Part shown: positions 13,720 through 63,576 of the stretch, one piece after another
How positions within the stretch are numbered: position 1 is the stretch's first letter
How the letters are laid out: each line of letters opens with the position of its first letter
Source of the DNA: Tubulanus polymorphus
Taxonomy: Eukaryota; Nemertea; Palaeonemertea; Tubulaniformes; Tubulanidae
Length of the DNA: 64,000 nt
Assembly: GCF_964204645.1 (NCBI RefSeq)
Contig: NC_134025.1
Coordinates: 1,104,001 to 1,168,000 of the forward strand
Direction: 5' to 3'
Program-made: the position numbers and the translations under genes
Notes under the pieces: generated by a model
Seen by the model: only the letters and a program-made list of their open reading frames with translations
What the model was told of the DNA's origin: nothing
The model's database searches: none

Positions 13720-15613
13720 TTACGACAACTCAACCGCAGCATCCATGCTGAGAGGAGCGTATTTAACGTATCGTTTCTCCGGACTGTGACCCGGACTCGG
13801 AAGATCGAGGCATTTCTTAACGAACACAGCCAGACACAACAATAAAGAAACGCAAGCAACTCCCGAGAAACAAATAACAAATAGAATACCGGGTGAAAAT
13901 GGCAGAACGAACGCGATATCGGTGATAGCTTCAAAATCCTGCATTAAACAATTAAAAACCCAAACATCGTTTAACTGACCTTCTTCACCGGTCGCGTCGT
14001 GACCGTCACCTCCGAATAAATAAAACGTATCATTACGAACCCAAGTTGCTGCGTTTAACCGAGGACCGGGAAGATTATCTAAACTCGGGGTGTGTATGTT
14101 ACCGTACGTAGCGCGACCTTCACCTTTAGTTAAACCGCCCATCCAAACCCAAACCTCTCGATTCACGTCGTATTTCCACAAATCAGACAATTCTTTATCA
14201 CCGCGATAGAAATTCGGCATCAAATAATCGATTCCTTCTCCGCCGAACAGCCATAGATCACCGTTTAGATCGACCCAGGATAAACTGAGTTTACGACACC
14301 CGGGGATCGTATCGGAATCTCCGTGACCTAAAACCCCGTAAATAGCGACGTGCCCCGGGCGCGTAAAACCGTTTAAATACCGCCAGCTTCTCCGTGTTAA
14401 ACTGAACGACCACAGATCTGAAGTGAAACCTACACTCGAATGTTGATTTCGCAAATTCTTTTCGATGTTCCCTCCGAACATGAACATCGTACGATTGTTA
14501 GTAACCCAGGTAACGGCTCCGTTACGAGGCAACGGATTCCGGTGATTCCTCGAATCGTCGTCCGTTCCGCGATCGACTTCAATTTCACGCCAGAATAATT
14601 TCGAGAAATCGAACACCCAGACGTCGTTAAGAAACGCGAAATGTTCGTCGACTCCGCTAAATATAACCATCTGATCGTCGAGACACCAGAGCGCCATCTC
14701 TGAACGAGCAGCAGGAGCGAACTGAATATCCAGCAAATTAATCCACGATGAATTCGAGAAAAAATACAACCACGTGTCACCTAAAACGTGATCGCCAATA
14801 GTACGACCGCCGTATAATACTAGAAAGTCTCCTCGCTTGCCGCAGGCGGCTGAGTTATACCGCGAGGCTGGTAAATCCCTCAGATTCCTGTCGATTCCTT
14901 CATGATTCCAGCCTCGTCGTTCCTCCAGTAACAAATCCCACCGATTCGTCGACATATCGTAGCGCCACAGATCGTTTAAAACTTTCGGAATCTTCGCGTC
15001 GATCGAATCATCGAATCCGAGTCCTCCGAAGATCCACGCGTGACGTACTCCATCGCTCCAGTACGCGTTACCCGATCGTGAACCCGGGTAATTATCACTT
15101 CCTAAGTAACTGATGTTGGATTGTTGATTTCGTAAGTTGTTGCCAGCAATCCACGTCCATTCTGAAAATATACAACATTATTTACGAAAAATGATTAAAA
15201 CCACATATATTAATTAAAAAATTGAAAATGAAATTTATTTATTTAAAATTAGAAGACAAATGTTCTAGACCAGGGGCCAGTTTCAAAAAGCATAATTAAC
15301 TTTAATTATAATTAGGATCTAAATCATGATTAAATTTCTTTAATCATGATTAGTAGTTTAATCATAATTAAGAGTTAATTACGCTTTGTGAAACCAGCCC
15401 CAGTTTTTTAAAATAGTTAGGTTTGAATTATTGTATCTATTCTCCCAGTGTACAGGATATCATACCGTGTAGTTAGAAATACACACCTGTAAACACAACT
15501 GTTGCCGATCTGTTTGATTTATGTTTAATAGGAAGAGATTCTGATAATGAAGTTGATTCAGTTAATGTTAAACAGTAAAAACTGATTAATAACAAAATGA
15601 ACATTCTTTTCAT
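13720..15613 (-). CDS. Type I membrane kelch-repeat protein
   Basis: Two coding exons (15613-15487, 15161-13720) encode 522 residues. A signal peptide (MKRMFILLLISFYCLTL) is followed by a kelch beta-propeller ectodomain of about residues 45-455. Repeats have the form NDVWVF/LWLFGG/SDLWKYD with W-W linkers (EWTWIAGN, WVWMGGL). A single transmembrane segment lies near 462-490 (LFVICFSGVACVSLLLCLAV), followed by a 32-residue cytoplasmic tail. N-glycosylation sequons (NSS, NRT, NDT) fit secretion. The long repeat linkers with P-G-x-R before the next blade resemble kelch repeats common in bacterial and fungal secreted proteins more than KLHL proteins. No catalytic motif was recognised, so the function is unknown; a cell-surface binding role is plausible. 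The first Met after the splice acceptor that opens the signal peptide was taken as start. Confidence 0.88.
15271..15412. mobile_element. Foldback element in the kelch-gene intron
   Basis: Left end caggggccagtttcaaaaag with cataattaactttaat; right end ttaattacgctttgtgaaac + cagcccc. The ends are complementary over about 30 bp, with an AT-rich palindromic interior. Confidence 0.75.
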
Positions 15614-45695: not shown

Positions 45696-48600
45696 CTAAA
45701 TAGAATTCAGTTGATATTTTTGAAGCCGAGATACGACAGCCACGACAAACCCAGCACCTCTTCCACTTCCATCTTCTGCTAATATCAACTTCGACTAGAA
45801 ATTAATAAATTCAATATGTCAATATTTTCTTCAACTGAAGAAATATTTCTAGTATTTTTAGATAAACATTTCTAAGACAGAAAACTTTTCAAATGACCAT
45901 GAAAAGAAATTCGAAATTACCTTAGTTTTAGGCACTAATCGATCTAATTCAGCTTGCATTAGATGTTTTAATGTTGGATGATACTCGTACAATGAACCAT
46001 CAACTGCTATCGTTACTTCAGGTTTCTTTACGTGATGCAGTAAAACTGATAAAGCTGAAGATAAACAATGGTTTCATAATTACAACTCATATATCAGATA
46101 CCGGTACTCAAATTCTCACGCCAGTCACTCTAAAGTTGGTTATACAGTCAACCCCTGATACAACGCAAACTCGCCTAATGACAAATTTCATCTGAGAAGG
46201 AACATCATTATTCTACTTTTGGATTTTCATCGAATTTAGCTCCCGATATACGGTCATTCTCTCTAATCGCAATGCAATTTTAATTGTCACTACGGCATCT
46301 GACTACTGTTTAAGTCTAACCAACTTTTGGGCAACTGGGCCCTAAAGCTGTCCTGTTTAATAATTACCGGTAGAAATGATTTTCGCAGCTCTGATTGTAA
46401 TTAATTCACTGATCAGGCGGACAGCAGCGACATCTGACGGCGAGGCATCTTCTAATAAACCTATTTCACGTAGAAATGCTTTAGTATTCTCCAAATTAAA
46501 CACATCCCTGAAATATGAAAATTACAGTGATTAATATCATACTCGAAATAATGTGCTGAATTTACTGGTCCCTGGACCCGGTTCCATAGTTCTCAATTAA
46601 TTTTCACTTTTAGACTTGAAATGAGCTTATTTCTGATGTTTTCACTCCTAGAGAACTGGATCCTCAAGTTATATATCTGTAACAAGGTTCCTTTAAAATC
46701 ATCTTGCCGAAAATCTTCAAGTATGAAAATATAACTGAACTACTTACTTTTCAATGTTAGAGACATGAGATGTTTTAACGGTTCCAACTTTACACAAAGC
46801 TTCCGTTTGTTTACCAGAAAATAACGATCCATTACTGGAGAATTTCACGAGATAATTACGCAGCAATTCACCGAGATATAAACCAGCGAATAACTTCTCA
46901 AAACTACATCAAAATATAATAATTACATCGATATTAAGCAAATGAGCTGTAAAATAATGATATCAAAAAAGTCAAACGCGATTGAATCGTGAATGTTATG
47001 ATGATCATTTTGTCGATGAATTCTCCAAATGATGGCTTACACTTATCAGTAAACTGAATTGGAAATACAAATTGGGATTCGAAGTAGTAAGTGATGACAT
47101 TTCCAAGTTTAAATTAACAATCTTCCACTTACGTAAAGGATCCAACATGATTCGAAGTTTTATCTACAAGACGATCGCAATCTGTTTTTAGAAAATCCAA
47201 TGATCCATTGTCTCCAAATGCACCCCATTCTATATCTATCAAAACCTTGAAATACGTAAATAAAGCAAATAATTCTAGTTCGTTTACAGATGACTGAAAT
47301 GATAGGATAACAGGTAATATATACAAATATATAAAGACATGCAATACCAAAAGCCAAGTGAAATATAATGTACTGAGGTGATAAAGTCTAGTCTACCCGG
47401 CTAATCTATTTAAGTCAAGAAAAGAGAAAGAAAAGAAATATAAACTAAATTCTAAAGAGATCTATTAAAACTGTGCACATATCTTACCATATTCTGTGAG
47501 AAAATTTGGAGAAAAAAACAATAATCAATTTGAGACATATTTCTTCATTTGAAACAATGTTACTGAGTACGATACAAAATTCATACCTTTTTTGGATCTT
47601 CGATAGGTTGTGTCCATTTATCAACATTCTCTAGGTGTTCTACGTAAGATGCATTACTCCCAGTTCCTGGAAATAATCAACAATCATTAAAGCATTTTAA
47701 ACGATATAAAGAATGAGCTATGTTCACGAACTCTGAATCAAAAATCTACCTAAAATGAGTCCAATTTGACAATGATGATCGATGTACGCTCCAGCCATTA
47801 ACGTACCAGTTGTATCGTTCAATATGGCCACTACTTCTACATTTATATCCTGAAATACATTTAATGATGAAACTGATTAAAATTCTTACCCAATCCGACT
47901 GCAATCAGGCATCTATGATCTATATAGCTACCAGTCATTAAAACACCGGTCACGTCATTCAATATCGCTACAATTTCCACATTTAAATCCTGCAAATTCA
48001 AAGTTGATTTTTCCCTGATTTCTGAATTCATTTTTTAACGATTGATCGAAGAGATTATGATTATTCTTACACCGCGTCTGTGTATCGCATCTTCCAGCAT
48101 CTTCACCGCATCCTCACCAACACCGTCCGGACATTTAAAACTTTTCGTCCAGGTGACGAGGATACCTTTCCTCAAACCTTCCTGAACCATCGGAAATGAG
48201 AATGTGAATCCTGAAATATCAATTCAAACATGTTTTATACGGAGAAGTGATCTCCCTCCTGGGTGTGAACGCACTCCATGAACGACTCCTTACTTACCAA
48301 GTGACATTTTCTTGTCTTTTATGTTTTCTTCTTCCAAAAACTTAGCAATACTTTCAGCCAAATGATCAAAAACCTGAAACACAAAAACTATTAGTTATGG
48401 TTTACTTTGAAAGTACCCAAGTAGCTAACACATTCCTCAATAGTTAAATCACCAAACCCTAAAAATTGAGACACCTACCCCAATAGCAGGTCCGTGCAGT
48501 TTTTCAGCAGAAACGTTATAATTCCTGGAAACGAATGATATCAATTTTCCAGCTCTCATGATCATACGCAACACGCGGAAATTAGTTCCTCCTAAATCTA

Positions 48601-49211
48601 ACGCTAAGAAATCACCGTCCTCTAAAAAACAGCGACAAATATCTGTTTAAAATGAAGAGAGACTCATAAAATCTACAGAGATTGAAATGAATAATTTACC
48701 AGTTCCGTCTAAAACATCTCTGACGTACGTATTCTCCATTTGTAACGAAGATTGTTTACGAGTTTTCTCATCACGACTCAAACCGTTTTTCATTTCTTCT
48801 TCCATAACTCTCATCATTCGATTCAACGTTTCATCATTCAGGTTTAACTCCTCATCCAGATCACTCACAATCTAAAAAAATACATCAATTAAACTCACTG
48901 TTAACCCGGGCTCAATATCATAGATCTAGAAGGTTAGATCATTTTTGTGAAAAGCCCAGGACCCGGTTTTATAGACTGGTATAAATTTTAACCCGGGGGC
49001 TCCCAGGTTTATGTTAATGCGAGTCTATAAAACTGGGCCCTGGACTTTTCACAAAAATGATTTAAACTCCTAGATCTAAATTGAGATAAACATGAATTAA
49101 TAAAGAAACAAACTCAATAATATAAGAATGTGTACTTACAGATTGAGATACACCGGTAATCAGTTCATCGATCGGTCCACAGTTTGAGTAATGCAGTAGA
49201 TGTGACATCAT
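45696..49211 (-). CDS. HK: Hexokinase, single-domain form
   Basis: Phosphorylates glucose to glucose-6-phosphate in the cytosol, the first step of glycolysis. Twelve coding exons are used per transcript: 49211-49140, 48871-48700, 48621-48479, 48373-48298, 48210-48071, then either 47989-47890 or 47849-47750, then 47666-47587, 47245-47133, 46903-46748, 46507-46368, 46054-45921, 45794-45696. They give 474 residues, the 50-kDa single-domain size. Motifs in order: [13 protein letters not shown] (phosphate 1), [16 protein letters not shown] (sugar binding), [15 protein letters not shown] (catalytic Asp at residue 213), [10 protein letters not shown] (phosphate 2), [10 protein letters not shown] (sugar binding), [11 protein letters not shown] and [11 protein letters not shown] (adenosine site). 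The start ATG has a tandem ATG three bases later. The unusual feature is the duplicated exon 6, annotated separately. Confidence 0.96.
47750..47849 (-). other. Hexokinase alternative catalytic exon 6b
   Basis: 100 bp, same phases as 6a, bounded by atttcag and GTAGATTT. It encodes [20 protein letters not shown] and then QIGLIL, which is the standard hexokinase form (NDTxGT...CEIGLIVGTG). Confidence 0.9.
47890..47989 (-). other. Hexokinase alternative catalytic exon 6a
   Basis: 100 bp, phase 0 in and phase 1 out, bounded by tttgcag and GTAAGAAT. It encodes [20 protein letters not shown]. It keeps the catalytic Asp but changes the usual Thr after it to Val, and ends AVGL instead of GLIL. Its sister exon is 47750-47849. 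Confidence 0.88.
48922..49078. mobile_element. Foldback element in hexokinase intron 1
   Basis: Outer arms agatctagaaggttagatca and the complement of tgatttaaactcctagatct; inner arms aggacccggttttatagact and agtctataaaactgggccct. About 65 bp per arm with an AT/GC-mixed centre. Confidence 0.8.
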
Positions 49212-49423: not shown

Positions 49424-52400
49424 CTAAGCGTCGGTTGAATCAGGATCGTACATCGCGTGTAGATTCTGAACCGGTTTTTTCTCGTTCTCTTCGAGTACCG
49501 CATTCTCGTGCATCTCGTGTCTGTTAAACAGTAACGTACGGAATCCGATCTCGCTCATTCCTAAATCGCTTTGAACGAGTTTCGACCAATCGATCGGCAG
49601 ATTCTCGATGACTTCGTGATCGAATTTGAACGAACCGATCGCGTCGAAATGTTCCAACGGATTCATCGACGTTAGAATCGCCGGGCGAAAATCGGCGAAA
49701 CACGCGCCCGCGGGCTCGGCTGTATCCGGTAACGGGCTCGAGACATCGAACTGTTTCAATATCCACTCGATGTTATTTTTGACTAGGTTATAAATCTGTA
49801 CGAGTGAACTACTGCCTTCAGGTGATTTCAGAACGATATCCGATAACGAGATCGTGTATTGTTCACGGAAGTTCGCGGTCGCTCCGTCCAAAACGCTATC
49901 TTCACTCGTGTATAAATCTTTCTTCAAATACTGCACGACGTTTTCTAATTTATCGGCGATCCAATAACGATATTTCTTGAAGAAATCCGACGCCCGTCGC
50001 GGGATGTTTCCTTCGCGTCGTTTATTCAGCATGCTGATTACGAAATAAGAACATTCCGATAACATGATGAGATTCTCTTGAAACTGGCCGCGTATTTCAA
50101 CCCCGGTCATCGCCGAGATGTGACCCGGATTAGAGAGTATATCCCTCACACAACTACCGATCACCTGCAACCCGACACATTTATGCACATTGGCCATTCC
50201 TTTCTCGACTAATTTCTCTTGAATCGTTCTGAACAGCAGACACAACGGACCCGGTAGAGAATACATATCTTCAACAATCTGCACGACTAATGCTTGTAAA
50301 GCGTCGCCGATGACGTCGCGTTCAACTTTCTGATTTCGTAAATTCGAGCGAAACGAATCGGATCCGTGAAGCGGTTTACAGCCGCACGGTAGATCACCGA
50401 GGTGACTCCAGAACGGTTCAACAGTCGGTTTCTCTTCCGATAGTAGCGTTAATAACGCGGGTTCGATGATCCGCATGATGAATGGCTGTAGAGCGAGGTA
50501 GATCGCTTCTAACCAGGACGGCACCTGAACCGACCGTCCCGGGATACAGTTCACGTCGAACAACGACCAATCATTACTCTGTTCGATCACCGGGATTATA
50601 ACCTTAACGATCGCGTCGGGAGACATCGGTAACTTCATCAAAACGGTAACGAACGGAATGAAATAATTATAGATATCAGTTTCACGACGACATTGACAGC
50701 TCGTACCGGTACAACATAATAAACCACACGCTGAGGTGAATTCAACTTCTTCTTCCGAGTCGGAGTCCACGCTACTGATCAACGGTTGAATCCGTGTATT
50801 CAACAACATGATCGATAACGTATAATCCTTCATAACTAACGCCTCCAGTAACATGGCCCAGTTCGGTTCCGGCTGATCGACTAGTAATTTCAGCTGTAGA
50901 TATAAAGCGGTCGTCGTCTGAAGGTCATCTACGTCGGTCACGTCTTTACTGTAAATATTCGGTAGAACGGAGTTTAACCAATCGGTAGGCTTACCCACGG
51001 GTGGTTCCTCGGCGTCGGGGTCGTCGCTGTTCTCCCACGTTCGTTTCTTCAAATAGCCGCGTTTGTAGACTTTATAAACGACGTCTAGAGGCGAACAGAC
51101 GACGGCTAACACGCCGAGCAACGTCGTGCAACAATTATGAATAGAATAGTAGATATTGTCGTATTTGGTACAGTTGAGTAACCGCGTTACGGAGTTACAC
51201 GCCGGGTAGAGGAACTGAGACGTGCACAATAGAATCGTAGTTATATCTCGCTGGAGTTGTTTCGTGCGTCGATACGACGGTTTCACGCGACACAAACGAG
51301 CGGCGAAAACGTGCAGAGATTCGTGTAAAACTGTGCTGAACATACTCTGAGCGAGACGCGGCGGTCCGTTAAACCACAGGTCGTGCTGTAGAGATTTCAT
51401 GTGTAAATTCCACATCTGTACCGAGAACGAGCATCGTTCACCTTCGTAGAAATCTTTCAGATTGTTCCAATCGTGAGCGTGAGCGTCCTGTAAAATACAC
51501 GTACTCAATACGTGATTGTGATGTTCGACGATCTGTCGCGAGATCGACTCGACGAGTTCGCAGAATTGACGATACAACAACGTGAACAGTTTCTTACCGT
51601 TATCGACCTCGGTCGACAGCACTGTATCGTAGTGTAGGAGATGATTACGAATGAAGGCGGCACTGGCGAGCGCTATATACGAACATTCGTACGGTAATTT
51701 TCGATGCGTCGCGTCGACGCAGATTTTATTCAAACGCAGGTGACAATTTTTCAGTTGAAGCATCGAACATTCGGCGAAACTCGACCGCAACAAGTGAAAC
51801 ACGTTATCGACGCCGATAGCCGCTAGGGGGAGCAATCGGTCGAGCTGTCGGAATAATCTCGCGACGCTGCGTGAAATGAACCGAGGATAATCGAGTTTAC
51901 CTCCGTACATCGTCTCACAGATCTGCTCGGTCGCGACTGAGTTACGCTCTTCCATGCAGTTTAGTTCGTCTGCTAACGCGCAGGTGGCGGTGTCGGTGAT
52001 TATTTGCTCGAGTATTTTCGCGATTCCGGCCATCAGTTTACCGAGTATTGATCTCCACTGCCACTGCGGTTTATCGTGATGCGTTGATTTCTCGACGACT
52101 CTCAGAGACCCGGATGCCGAACTCGGCCGGTCCTCGATCGGATCCATATCCTCCATATTGTGCATCATCGCGTCTTGACGCATGAATATATTAGTCATGT
52201 GATCGTCCGAGTCGATTCCTCTACGCGGGGAAACCCCGGCACGCGATTCTTTCAGATTCGATTTCAGATGTTTTTTATCGGTCGGTTTGCCGGGCAGTAA
52301 TTCCCACGTCATGCGTCGGTACAAATTATCGATGTGACATTCGATCGCGAAGATCGAAAGGGTTAAATTCGTCAGAGTTTTCATGAACGCGCCGGCGACG

Positions 52401-53476
52401 TCCGTGTCGTCGTCCTGCGCGTAGTCGTCGTTCTGACCGCGGTACAGTAAACTGTCTAAACTCTTCGACTGCGCTTGTTTTAAAACGCTCGTCGACTGTT
52501 TCAGACTCGTCAGCAAACCGACTTCGCTTTTAGATGGAGTGAGGGTCTTCGGTTCGGATATTTCCGCAAGGGATTCCCTCGCGATGTCGACGATCCTCGT
52601 TAGTTTCTCCGAGATCTTCTCGAGGTAAATCTCGTGAAGCGCGTGAAACGTTTTCACCGCGTCGAATAAATCAGAATTCAACAGAACGAAGTCTTCATTA
52701 ATCATTCCGATAACGACCGTCGTTAAACGCTCGAACGTACGAGAAATCTCCGAGAAACTCTTCTCATTCCCGAGACTATCGACGAGCAGGTCGCCGAGGC
52801 AACGATCGACCTGTTGCGCTCGGATCGCGCGGTATCGGCTCCACACGACCTCGCTCGGATACAACGAACACAAACTCTGTAAATACCTCAGTCGTTTATT
52901 TGGCGCGTGATTGACGATAAAGTCGCCGGTTTCGAGCGGTAGTCGTTTCAAACGCTCGACGAAATAACGATTCAAACGCGAGCGAATCTCCGCCCAGAGT
53001 GAGGCTGTAACCTCTTCCTCGGTGTCGGTTACCGTGTTTATGGACAGCGTCGAATCGGACACGGTTTTCCCCGAACTCTCGGCGGATATCGGTGGCAGAA
53101 TCATTCCCTCATCGGACGAGAGCAGTAATAAATGATCGAGTATCGCTTCCTCACATCCCGGTGATTGTTTGTCTAATATCTGAATCACGTGACGCAGCAT
53201 TTTATTGATATCTTCGTGAACCGGTTCCCCGCAACCCGTATCTTCTATTACACGATTGTCTCTGATGAATTGGAAAGCTTCGATTGTCGTCTCGTGACTC
53301 TTACAGCCCGGGAAATACGTCGCTAACTGAGTAATATCACCGACTGACATCTCCAGCTGTTTCGTGTTCATATTCAGTTGATTATCCAGTTTTCTGATCA
53401 GTTCGTCGAGAGCTTCTTGACTCGGAATTCCGTCGTCCAACATCGTGCGTAAACACAGTCCGTATTCGGCAGCCAT
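49424..53476 (-). CDS. KIAA0825: KIAA0825 homologue, large protein in one coding exon
   Basis: Encodes 1350 residues without an intron, from an ATG in a strong context (caaaATGGCTGCC). The longer frame upstream begins with a TTG and was not used. A splice acceptor (cattttcag-type, tttttcag then tgattta) at about 53530 shows at least one 5'UTR intron. By memory of the human sequence, the N-terminal region matches KIAA0825 in pattern: a motif NMNTKQLEMSVGDITQ, then TTIEAFQFI, then a W-EIR-LNRYFV-RL segment, then QSLCSLYPSEVVWSRY. The C-terminal DWSKLVQSDLGMSEIGFRTLL also fits. The function is not known; human mutations have been linked to postaxial polydactyly. A cysteine cluster (CGLLCCTGTSCQC) lies in the middle. 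The region is clearly richer in GC than its neighbours. Vertebrate KIAA0825 has many introns. Confidence 0.83.
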   Translation of the reverse strand: MAAEYGLCLRTMLDDGIPSQEALDELIRKLDNQLNMNTKQLEMSVGDITQLATYFPGCKSHETTIEAFQFIRDNRVIEDTGCGEPVHEDINKMLRHVIQILDKQSPGCEEAILDHLLLLSSDEGMILPPISAESSGKTVSDSTLSINTVTDTEEEVTASLWAEIRSRLNRYFVERLKRLPLETGDFIVNHAPNKRLRYLQSLCSLYPSEVVWSRYRAIRAQQVDRCLGDLLVDSLGNEKSFSEISRTFERLTTVVIGMINEDFVLLNSDLFDAVKTFHALHEIYLEKISEKLTRIVDIARESLAEISEPKTLTPSKSEVGLLTSLKQSTSVLKQAQSKSLDSLLYRGQNDDYAQDDDTDVAGAFMKTLTNLTLSIFAIECHIDNLYRRMTWELLPGKPTDKKHLKSNLKESRAGVSPRRGIDSDDHMTNIFMRQDAMMHNMEDMDPIEDRPSSASGSLRVVEKSTHHDKPQWQWRSILGKLMAGIAKILEQIITDTATCALADELNCMEERNSVATEQICETMYGGKLDYPRFISRSVARLFRQLDRLLPLAAIGVDNVFHLLRSSFAECSMLQLKNCHLRLNKICVDATHRKLPYECSYIALASAAFIRNHLLHYDTVLSTEVDNGKKLFTLLYRQFCELVESISRQIVEHHNHVLSTCILQDAHAHDWNNLKDFYEGERCSFSVQMWNLHMKSLQHDLWFNGPPRLAQSMFSTVLHESLHVFAARLCRVKPSYRRTKQLQRDITTILLCTSQFLYPACNSVTRLLNCTKYDNIYYSIHNCCTTLLGVLAVVCSPLDVVYKVYKRGYLKKRTWENSDDPDAEEPPVGKPTDWLNSVLPNIYSKDVTDVDDLQTTTALYLQLKLLVDQPEPNWAMLLEALVMKDYTLSIMLLNTRIQPLISSVDSDSEEEVEFTSACGLLCCTGTSCQCRRETDIYNYFIPFVTVLMKLPMSPDAIVKVIIPVIEQSNDWSLFDVNCIPGRSVQVPSWLEAIYLALQPFIMRIIEPALLTLLSEEKPTVEPFWSHLGDLPCGCKPLHGSDSFRSNLRNQKVERDVIGDALQALVVQIVEDMYSLPGPLCLLFRTIQEKLVEKGMANVHKCVGLQVIGSCVRDILSNPGHISAMTGVEIRGQFQENLIMLSECSYFVISMLNKRREGNIPRRASDFFKKYRYWIADKLENVVQYLKKDLYTSEDSVLDGATANFREQYTISLSDIVLKSPEGSSSLVQIYNLVKNNIEWILKQFDVSSPLPDTAEPAGACFADFRPAILTSMNPLEHFDAIGSFKFDHEVIENLPIDWSKLVQSDLGMSEIGFRTLLFNRHEMHENAVLEENEKKPVQNLHAMYDPDSTDA

Positions 53477-53530
53477 TTTGTTTTCAGTAATCAGCGCGCG
53501 CGTGACGCGTTTCAAGCGTAAATCACTGAA

Positions 53531-62400: not shown

Positions 62401-63576
62401 TTCTGAAATATGTAAGTATATAAGACATTTATAAAATGTGTATTGAAAGATTCAATCATCAGCCTCATTGATAATATACTGTCGACTAATCGTTATGATG
62501 TAATGGATGATGCAAATCATAAAAGGGGTTAAAAGTGTAGTTACAACAGAGTTAGTTGTACAACCGTATTGTACAACCAGTGACATGATCACTTCTCGCA
62601 AAATAAGCTTACAATCGCTTCCAAACGTTCAAATGACCCTTCTTACCCAACTCTTTGTTTTTTCCATCACATCACATTCACCTATTGGATAACTGCATTA
62701 TTTTATAGGTAACTATTTACAAATATGATAATTATATGCGAACATGTCATTTATGTGTAATATGCATGATCCTTAATGTTTTTTTTTTTCATTCCAGATT
62801 TGGATATAATTAATAATATAATGAAAGATCAGTCTGAAGCAGCCCGCAGAGCACTTCCGGGATTGAAAAACGTTTACAAAAGGTGCGTTACTAATATCTG
62901 CGGGCCTAAGGAGCCAACTCCTCCTAAAATAATTCCACCATTTGAGTTGGTTCCTTTGCAGGAGGTGGACCCTGCTTCTCCCGTAAATGTGGAGCAGGAG
63001 GTCGCCCCTGCAGTGGTGACCCCGACAGAGGCGCCACAGCTTCAGACGCCTTCACTGCGTCGGTCGCCCCGTCGAAAGACAAAAGATATAAATTACGCAA
63101 TAGGTACGGGGCGTCCGAAAACAAAAAAGAAAGGCAAGCGTGCCGCTCATCCTCTTCCACCGAAACAGCTCAACTTTGAAGAGGAGAGCAGTGATGAGGA
63201 TCTCGCCAATCCTGGAGCACAAACACCACCACCACCAGGGCCCGCAACACCTCCACCACTTCACGCAACACCTCCACCACCTCCACCACCGCCATCTAAG
63301 ACTAAGACTAAGAGTAAGAAAAGACAAACTAAAAAAAGAGCACTTGAAGAAGATGAAGAAGAAGATGATGATAATGATATTTTTGTAACGCCCGCCCAGG
63401 CTTCGACATCGGGCGCTCCAGCGGGGGCACCACCTTCCCCCGCTGTCGAGCTTATCGCGCGCGGCCCTGGTTGGTCTCGTAACATCGATTTTAAAGATCC
63501 AATAAGAATGCTCCGCGATGTTGAAGGGGCATTTAAAGGTAAATTTCAAATGGTTAAACGTCGGCGAACACAATAG
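56460..63576 (+). CDS. Orphan nuclear-type basic, proline-rich protein
   Basis: Not recognised. Two coding exons join in phase (56460-56559 and 62798-63576) to give 292 residues. Exon 1 supplies a compact helix-like N terminus (MSTKYDLFSGLLKLVRAEVL). Exon 2 continues NLDIINNIMKDQSEAARRAL. Next come an AT-hook-like GTGRPKTKKKGKR flanked by basic residues, two polyproline runs, a Lys/Arg block (KTKTKSKKRQTKKR) next to an acidic run (EEDEEEDDDND), and a C-terminal DPIRMLRDVEGAFKGKFQMV with KRRRTQ. This suggests a DNA- or chromatin-associated protein. The exon 1 leader (56351-56459) is CAG/CAA-rich. The intron is 6.2 kb. AATAAA at 63781 fits the end of the transcript. It could be a lineage-specific gene or derive from a mobile or viral element; the sequence does not decide. 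Confidence 0.7.
57240..57575. repeat. Minisatellite, ggtttagtccatattttagt type
   Basis: Compound repeats of tagtccatattttagtcaat + aactggactgcggtg, with a shorter variant lacking the aataactgg part. Confidence 0.88.
58090..58292. repeat. Minisatellite, 23-24 bp unit
   Basis: About eight copies of agtttactcagtatccggac + cac. Confidence 0.92.
58690..58870. repeat. Minisatellite, about 70-bp unit
   Basis: Three diverged copies of a unit with gtgaaatggtttttacccct and gttgtttctaaaggtacagc. A single further copy lies at about 61665-61725 in the same intron. Confidence 0.8.
59255..59545. mobile_element. Probable LINE 3'-UTR remnant
   Basis: Contains cagagcgctttacattttcg, gccaggtacccatttactta and aagtgtcttgccggggatgc. 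These resemble the 3' region of widespread invertebrate LINEs (usually aagtgtcttgcccaaggaca). No coding part is left. Confidence 0.5.
60540..60785 (+). mobile_element. Probable LINE 3' end with (GAATT)n tail
   Basis: Includes gccagccggcccggtcccgg, a long AT-rich trailer and a terminal aataaagtattgaattgaat. Such short AT tails are typical of CR1/L2-type ends. A 5'-truncated fragment. Confidence 0.5.

Follow-up and report, generated by a model that had tools for sequence, protein, structure and literature searches.

The DNA analysed here (the window) is a 64-kb stretch from the nemertean Tubulanus polymorphus, bases 1104001-1168000 of contig NC_134025.1 (C1 below) in a genome of 267.8 Mb and 77 contigs. 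It contains a complete hexokinase gene, gene A, on the minus strand (49211-45696), with 12 coding exons and one additional version of exon 6. The two versions, termed 6a and 6b in transcript order, were compared with each other and with the single exon 6 of a paralogous hexokinase gene, gene B, on the same contig. The joined gene model gives a product of 474 amino acids (aa) with either version. The Pfam models Hexokinase_1 and Hexokinase_2 (PF00349 and PF03727) cover both isoforms over essentially their whole length, at 210.4 and 207.7 bits for the 6b isoform and 201.2 and 199.6 bits for the 6a isoform (cut-offs 24.3 and 24). In a search of Protein Data Bank (PDB) sequences, the closest solved structures are entries for hexokinase-1 and hexokinase-2, which we take to be mostly human. 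Gene A is a single-domain hexokinase of the animal type. Its features around exon 6, in window coordinates and with the basis of each in brackets, are as follows.

45696..49211, minus strand: hexokinase gene A, its coding exons 1-12 running from the ATG through the stop codon (GT-AG gene model and open frame, Pfam, best PDB match)
48071..48210, minus strand: exon 5, the upstream partner common to 6a and 6b, donor at 48071 (gene model)
47890..47989, minus strand: exon 6a, the diverged version of the catalytic exon, apparently gene A's own (sequence, gene model, comparison with gene B)
47850..47889, minus strand: spacer of 40 nt separating 6a from 6b and bearing 5' and 3' splice signals (gene model and splice-site scoring)
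47750..47849, minus strand: exon 6b, the canonical version (sequence and gene model; 96 of 100 nt identical to exon 6 of gene B)
47587..47666, minus strand: exon 7, the downstream partner common to 6a and 6b, acceptor at 47666 (gene model)

Exons 6a and 6b are 100 bp each, are entered in phase 0 and left in phase 1, and are preceded by AG and followed by GT; exon 7 then begins partway through the codon for the first Gly of the phosphate-loop GTG. The encoded segments are identical at 22 of 33 residues, and a tblastn search of gene A with 6a as the query recovers 6b at E 7e-13, far above chance likeness. The two exons are thus adjacent, homologous, similar in length and equal in phase, with compatible splice sites, which are the features by which tandem exons are recognized (PMC3228551). 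A preliminary description of this DNA had proposed two 100-bp minus-strand exons running from phase 0 to phase 1, and their coordinates, AG and GT boundaries and translations were confirmed. The flanking junctions that it proposed (donor 48071, acceptor 47666) also agree with our gene model.

All introns of gene A are GT-AG. The acceptor of exon 8 is the less usual AAG, where gene B has TAG, and the exon was placed there (start 47245) by alignment with exon 8 of gene B. An alternative CAG acceptor lies 48 nt upstream (47293-47246, minus strand) and would add 16 in-frame residues before the conserved IEWGAFG. In intron 7, the six nucleotides AATATG stand between ctcacag and gtaagat (47493-47488, minus strand), as either an in-frame Asn-Met micro-exon or a chance arrangement.

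The choice between exons 6a and 6b

The reading frame of gene A is open when 6a or 6b is included alone, and is shifted and runs into stops when both (1525 nt) or neither (1325 nt) are joined, so the frame shift that the preliminary description expected from joint inclusion holds. The spacer between the exons is also short. The 22 remaining introns of genes A and B measure 78-662 nt, so that the spacer, at 40 nt, is roughly half as long as the shortest of them. Introns of chaperonin genes in the same genome, 32 in number, were estimated at about 69-910 nt from exon-by-exon matches to Cpn60_TCP1 (PF00118), 45 of 53 matches being used and match ends standing in for splice sites. The spacer holds a branch-point-like TTCAT whose A, located by eye, is about 22 nt away from the donor of 6a and 18 nt away from the acceptor of 6b. 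Among human mutually exclusive exons, a distance of less than 50 bp from donor to branch point is the criterion for steric interference (PMC5740500).

Splice-site scores were calculated with weights derived from these same few introns, leaving one out at a time. The 6a acceptor and donor score 6.7 and 7.8, and those of 6b score 9.5 and 6.9, all within the range of the other sites (21 acceptors from -0.6 to 13.1, 21 donors from 3.4 to 8.9). By these scores both exons appear fit for splicing, and both are probably used in RNA. Joint inclusion is barred by the frame, and the 40-nt distance is predicted to hinder it sterically. Mutually exclusive use, which the preliminary description considered probable, is therefore well supported at the sequence level: the reading frame permits one exon only, the spacer has just 40 nt, and the splice sites of both exons are ordinary.

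Exon 6 encodes the catalytic Asn-Asp together with the strand that leads up to the phosphate loop. Under mutually exclusive use, exon 5 would be spliced to either 6a or 6b, and the chosen exon then to exon 7. Splicing of 6a to 6b would be blocked because the spacer brings the 5' splice site of 6a too close to the branch point of 6b, and any transcript with both exons or neither, being out of frame, would be discarded.

Sequence tracts shared with a second hexokinase gene

Gene B lies at about C1:1316061-1320275 on the plus strand, about 163 kb from gene A, and follows the same 12-exon plan with one exon 6 only. The two genes are old paralogues. Their DNA identity is 49-74% per exon (exons 1-5, 7-9, 11 and 12), and their synonymous sites are saturated, with 186 differences over 236.5 sites, or 0.79 per site, in nine pooled exons (all but exons 1, 6 and 10). 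Nonsynonymous differences per site amount to 0.16-0.27 in the nine pooled exons, 0.41 in exon 1 and 0.10 in exon 10, which is partly converted. Exon 6a is at this background level: it shows 66.7% DNA identity to exon 6 of gene B, 13.7 synonymous differences over 22.3 sites (0.61 per site; binomial P = 0.08) and 0.25 nonsynonymous differences per site, with a nonsynonymous divergence (dN) of 0.31 and a synonymous divergence (dS) of 1.27. Exon 6b differs from exon 6 of gene B at just two of its first 96 bases, and at synonymous sites by 2.5 differences over 22 sites (0.11 per site; binomial P of about 1e-10 against the background). The near-identity forms one of two bounded tracts.

47744..47856, minus strand: conversion tract 1, over exon 6b, 113 bp, 95.6% identical to C1:1317887-1317999 in gene B (DNA alignment)
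46364..46476, minus strand: conversion tract 2, most of exon 10, 113 bp, 98.2% identical to C1:1319109-1319221 in gene B (DNA alignment)

In tract 1, the identity breaks off no more than about 7 nt from the acceptor and, at the other end, close to the donor. Tract 2 has two differences in 113 bp, starts abruptly 31 nt inside exon 10 and ends at the intron. Over the whole of exon 10, synonymous differences between the genes fall to 0.24 per site (binomial P = 1e-11), and the longest identical run, 89 nt, was reached in none of 20000 codon shuffles, in which the largest run was 57 nt. A whole-genome DNA search with 6b and its edges matched, among the best candidates scored, only 6b itself and gene B. 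A wider segmental duplication of the two loci was considered and rejected: comparison of the 64-kb window with 53 kb around gene B gives just four alignments with E of 1e-10 or lower, all in hexokinase exons.

Bounded tracts of excess identity between diverged paralogues, synonymous sites included, are the mark of gene conversion, and two such tracts are present. Because they stand as recent identity within otherwise old paralogues, exon 6b and exon 6 of gene B have recently exchanged sequence by interlocus gene conversion. Selection for nucleotide identity itself, as in a splicing or regulatory element, is an unlikely substitute because 6a does not share the sequence and tract 2 begins abruptly inside exon 10. 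The GC contents of third codon positions (33% in the other exons of A, 39% in the other exons of B, 30% in exon 6b, 27% in exon 6 of B) were not informative on the direction of conversion.

With the exception of the 5' end of tract 2, inside exon 10, the tracts end close to exon ends. Exchange confined to regions that are still homologous would explain this, as the introns of the two genes have lost their likeness. The pattern further suggests that exon 6b already stood in gene A before the last exchange, because an inserted piece of gene B should have brought random lengths of gene B introns with it and 6b does not carry them. Exon 6a, in turn, is on sequence grounds the native, diverged exon 6 of gene A. 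The preliminary description had called the exons tandemly duplicated; the pair is indeed adjacent and homologous, yet duplication is only part of its history, as interlocus conversion with gene B has shaped it as well.

A different origin, which we treat as a tentative but serious alternative, is that gene A had 6a alone and that 6b is a recent insertion of exon 6 of gene B. Since this proposal concerns the origin of the exons and not their use, its probability overlaps with that of the explanation favoured below. Exon 6a lies at the divergence expected of a native exon, 6b is recent and B-like, and no remnant of 6a was found in gene B, its introns included: blastn and tblastn searches with both exon versions returned only B's own exon 6 and weak chance-level matches. 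The ends of the shared identity, at most about 7 nt from the acceptor and close to the donor, are however better fitted by homology-limited conversion of an exon already in place. If 6b was imported, then the locus would illustrate how alternative splicing can arise without duplication of an exon in tandem.

Apart from genes A and B, a third, diverged hexokinase gene was observed, with C-terminal exons at C2:6160552-6161388 on the minus strand of another contig. It was set aside as an outgroup for the direction of conversion because its readable sequence includes no exon 6.

Residue changes in exon 6a and the use of the pair

The segment encoded by exon 6 was compared at the residue level with HK1 and HK2, and residues are numbered as in glucokinase, counting from the catalytic Asp205 in the HK1/HK2 alignments. 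Both halves of HK1 and HK2 read NDTVGT. Exon 6b has NDT and GTG, and 6a has NDV, so that the Asn, the Asp and GTG are retained and the Thr is lost. In full, 6a retains Asn204 and Asp205 and has Val for Thr206, Val for Thr209, Ala for Gly223 and Gly for Ile225, where HK1 and HK2 have Thr, Thr, Gly and Ile. The preliminary description had reported the loss of the conserved Thr beside the catalytic Asp and a change in the strand before the phosphate loop. Both are borne out by comparison with 6b, HK1 and HK2, with the addition that both Thr of NDTxGT have become Val. Its further suggestion of a non-catalytic, sensor-like form goes beyond what the sequence shows, as the catalytic Asp and the preceding Asn are both kept. 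At E up to 0.001, the 6a fragment matches 44 distinct PDB sequences and the 6b fragment 46.

Substitutions at three of these positions are known from human glucokinase. T206P and G223S come from patients with maturity-onset diabetes of the young (MODY; PMC3321013), T209M is disease-associated, and T206 contacts residues of the glucose site (PMC4098773). G223S lowers activity (PMC10131484). One study measured glucose binding by T206M, another substitution from a MODY patient, at 133% of the wild-type value (PMC10649437), which would fit a 6a form that binds glucose with reduced turnover, by analogy from another substitution in another enzyme. T206 and T209 are not named in the main text of a glucokinase deep mutational scan. 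Judged by its residues, the 6a form most likely has an altered turnover or glucose response with the catalytic Asp kept; a weakly catalytic glucose binder is a bolder option, and a dead sensor is possible.

Putting these observations together, we consider it probable, though well short of certain, that gene A is a single-domain hexokinase with a mutually exclusive pair of sixth exons, of which 6b is canonical and made B-like by interlocus conversion and 6a is the gene's own, with altered kinetics. The 6b isoform would have a standard active site. Because 6b shares recent DNA ancestry with exon 6 of gene B via conversion, this would in effect be the active site of B in the body of A. In the 6a isoform, both Thr-to-Val changes and the altered strand would shift turnover or glucose response.

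Several observations weigh against this explanation. Codon shuffles also produce identical runs as long as those in exon 6b (about 30 nt). The shuffle result thus concerns exon 10 only, and the case for 6b depends on the binomial test, in which sites are treated as independent. Introns near 40 nt are spliced in some animals, and the steric argument therefore rests on the small intron sample of this genome. As for the protein, of the 33 residues 6a shares 12 and 9 with the two halves of HK1, and 6b shares 16 and 15. The 6a fragment also scores lower on solved hexokinases, at best 112 bits (hexokinase-2) against 141 for 6b, and the last 8 residues hold 5 of the 11 differences between 6a and 6b.

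The lower score, the crowding of differences toward the exon end and the loss of both conserved Thr and of two residues in the strand after them, Gly and Ile, could also be read as an exon replacement in progress, in which only 6b is in use and 6a, an exon once used or now superfluous, is drifting to a pseudo-exon. We hold this to be rather unlikely. Exon 6a has no stop, is exactly 100 bp, keeps its phase and has good splice sites; its dN and dS relative to exon 6 of gene B indicate protein constraint over its history, and its nonsynonymous rate is like that of the other exons of gene A.

The stops reached after the junction in both-in and both-out transcripts raise the further idea of a poison-exon switch, in which occasional inclusion of both exons or neither would cause a frameshift and mRNA decay, and the pair would set the amount of hexokinase A instead of making two proteins. 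This appears improbable: one out-of-frame exon would be enough for such a switch, 6a keeps a protein-coding pattern, and joint inclusion would require the removal of an intron of only 40 nt. Finally, a second exon 6 created in the assembly from mis-joined reads of A and B, to which the restriction of near-identity to short tracts might point, is very improbable given that the flanks of 6b are unlike those of gene B, that 4 of 100 positions differ from B and that the tract in exon 10 shows a similar exchange where nothing is duplicated.

Comparison with known exon pairs and neighbouring open frames

Homologous mutually exclusive exons are a known kind, sugar and glycolytic enzymes included, to which hexokinase A adds an unusual history. 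In ketohexokinase (KHK-A/KHK-C), also a sugar kinase, two adjacent homologous exons of equal length (135 bp) are used one or the other and alter part of the fold (PMC2651755), and the catalytic residue of the region is retained in both versions (PMC9741552); those exons come from local duplication, however, and conversion from another gene goes unmentioned in the excerpts consulted. Pyruvate kinase (PKM) is likewise a glycolytic enzyme with homologous mutually exclusive exons (PMC9741552, PMC5740500), but there the change affects allosteric fructose-1,6-bisphosphate binding and not residues beside the catalytic base (PMC9741552). PFKP is another glycolytic enzyme with such exons (PMC9741552).

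Gene conversion has also been described in exon copies of this kind. In newt Nav1.4, homologous alternative exon copies were shaped by conversion, which occurred between paralogous genes too (PMC8476164). Conversion there homogenized the exon copies, whereas in hexokinase A the copies differ and one matches a separate gene. Gene conversion is mentioned as well for the exon copies of Drosophila Gr39a (PMC2204066). The human exon pairs of the steric-interference class resemble 6a and 6b in the short distance from donor to branch point, but that set is human, and the word hexokinase is absent from the main text of the paper (PMC5740500).

A search of the open-access literature, which may miss an earlier report, gave, among the papers listed, no case of duplicated, mutually exclusive or converted exons in a hexokinase, in line with the statement in the preliminary description that no such exon choice was known in animal hexokinases. 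A second search, on mutually exclusive or alternative exons with conversion, gave no hexokinase case among the open-access matches listed. Hexokinase is among the most studied enzymes, and two forms differing around the catalytic Asp within a segment of 33 residues would amount to a natural experiment on the role of two conserved threonines. The match to the paralogue would further show conversion and alternative splicing acting together, in that the converted exon stays canonical and the neighbouring exon is free to change. In its strongest form, one gene would splice in either its own diverged catalytic exon or one kept identical to a paralogue's active site by ectopic conversion, yielding a standard glucose kinase and a Thr-to-Val glucose binder with little turnover, with conversion from another gene renewing one member of the pair. 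We regard this full version as unlikely.

Three further open frames were observed in the window. The frame at 62776-63576 on the plus strand (266 aa) is basic and proline-rich, with no Pfam match at E 0.001. The frame at 13720-14955 on the minus strand (411 aa) has Kelch-repeat matches followed by a hydrophobic stretch, seen by eye, near the C-terminus. Directly upstream of gene A, a minus-strand frame of 1363 aa (49424-53515) carries a DUF4495 domain (Pfam PF14906, E 5e-86).
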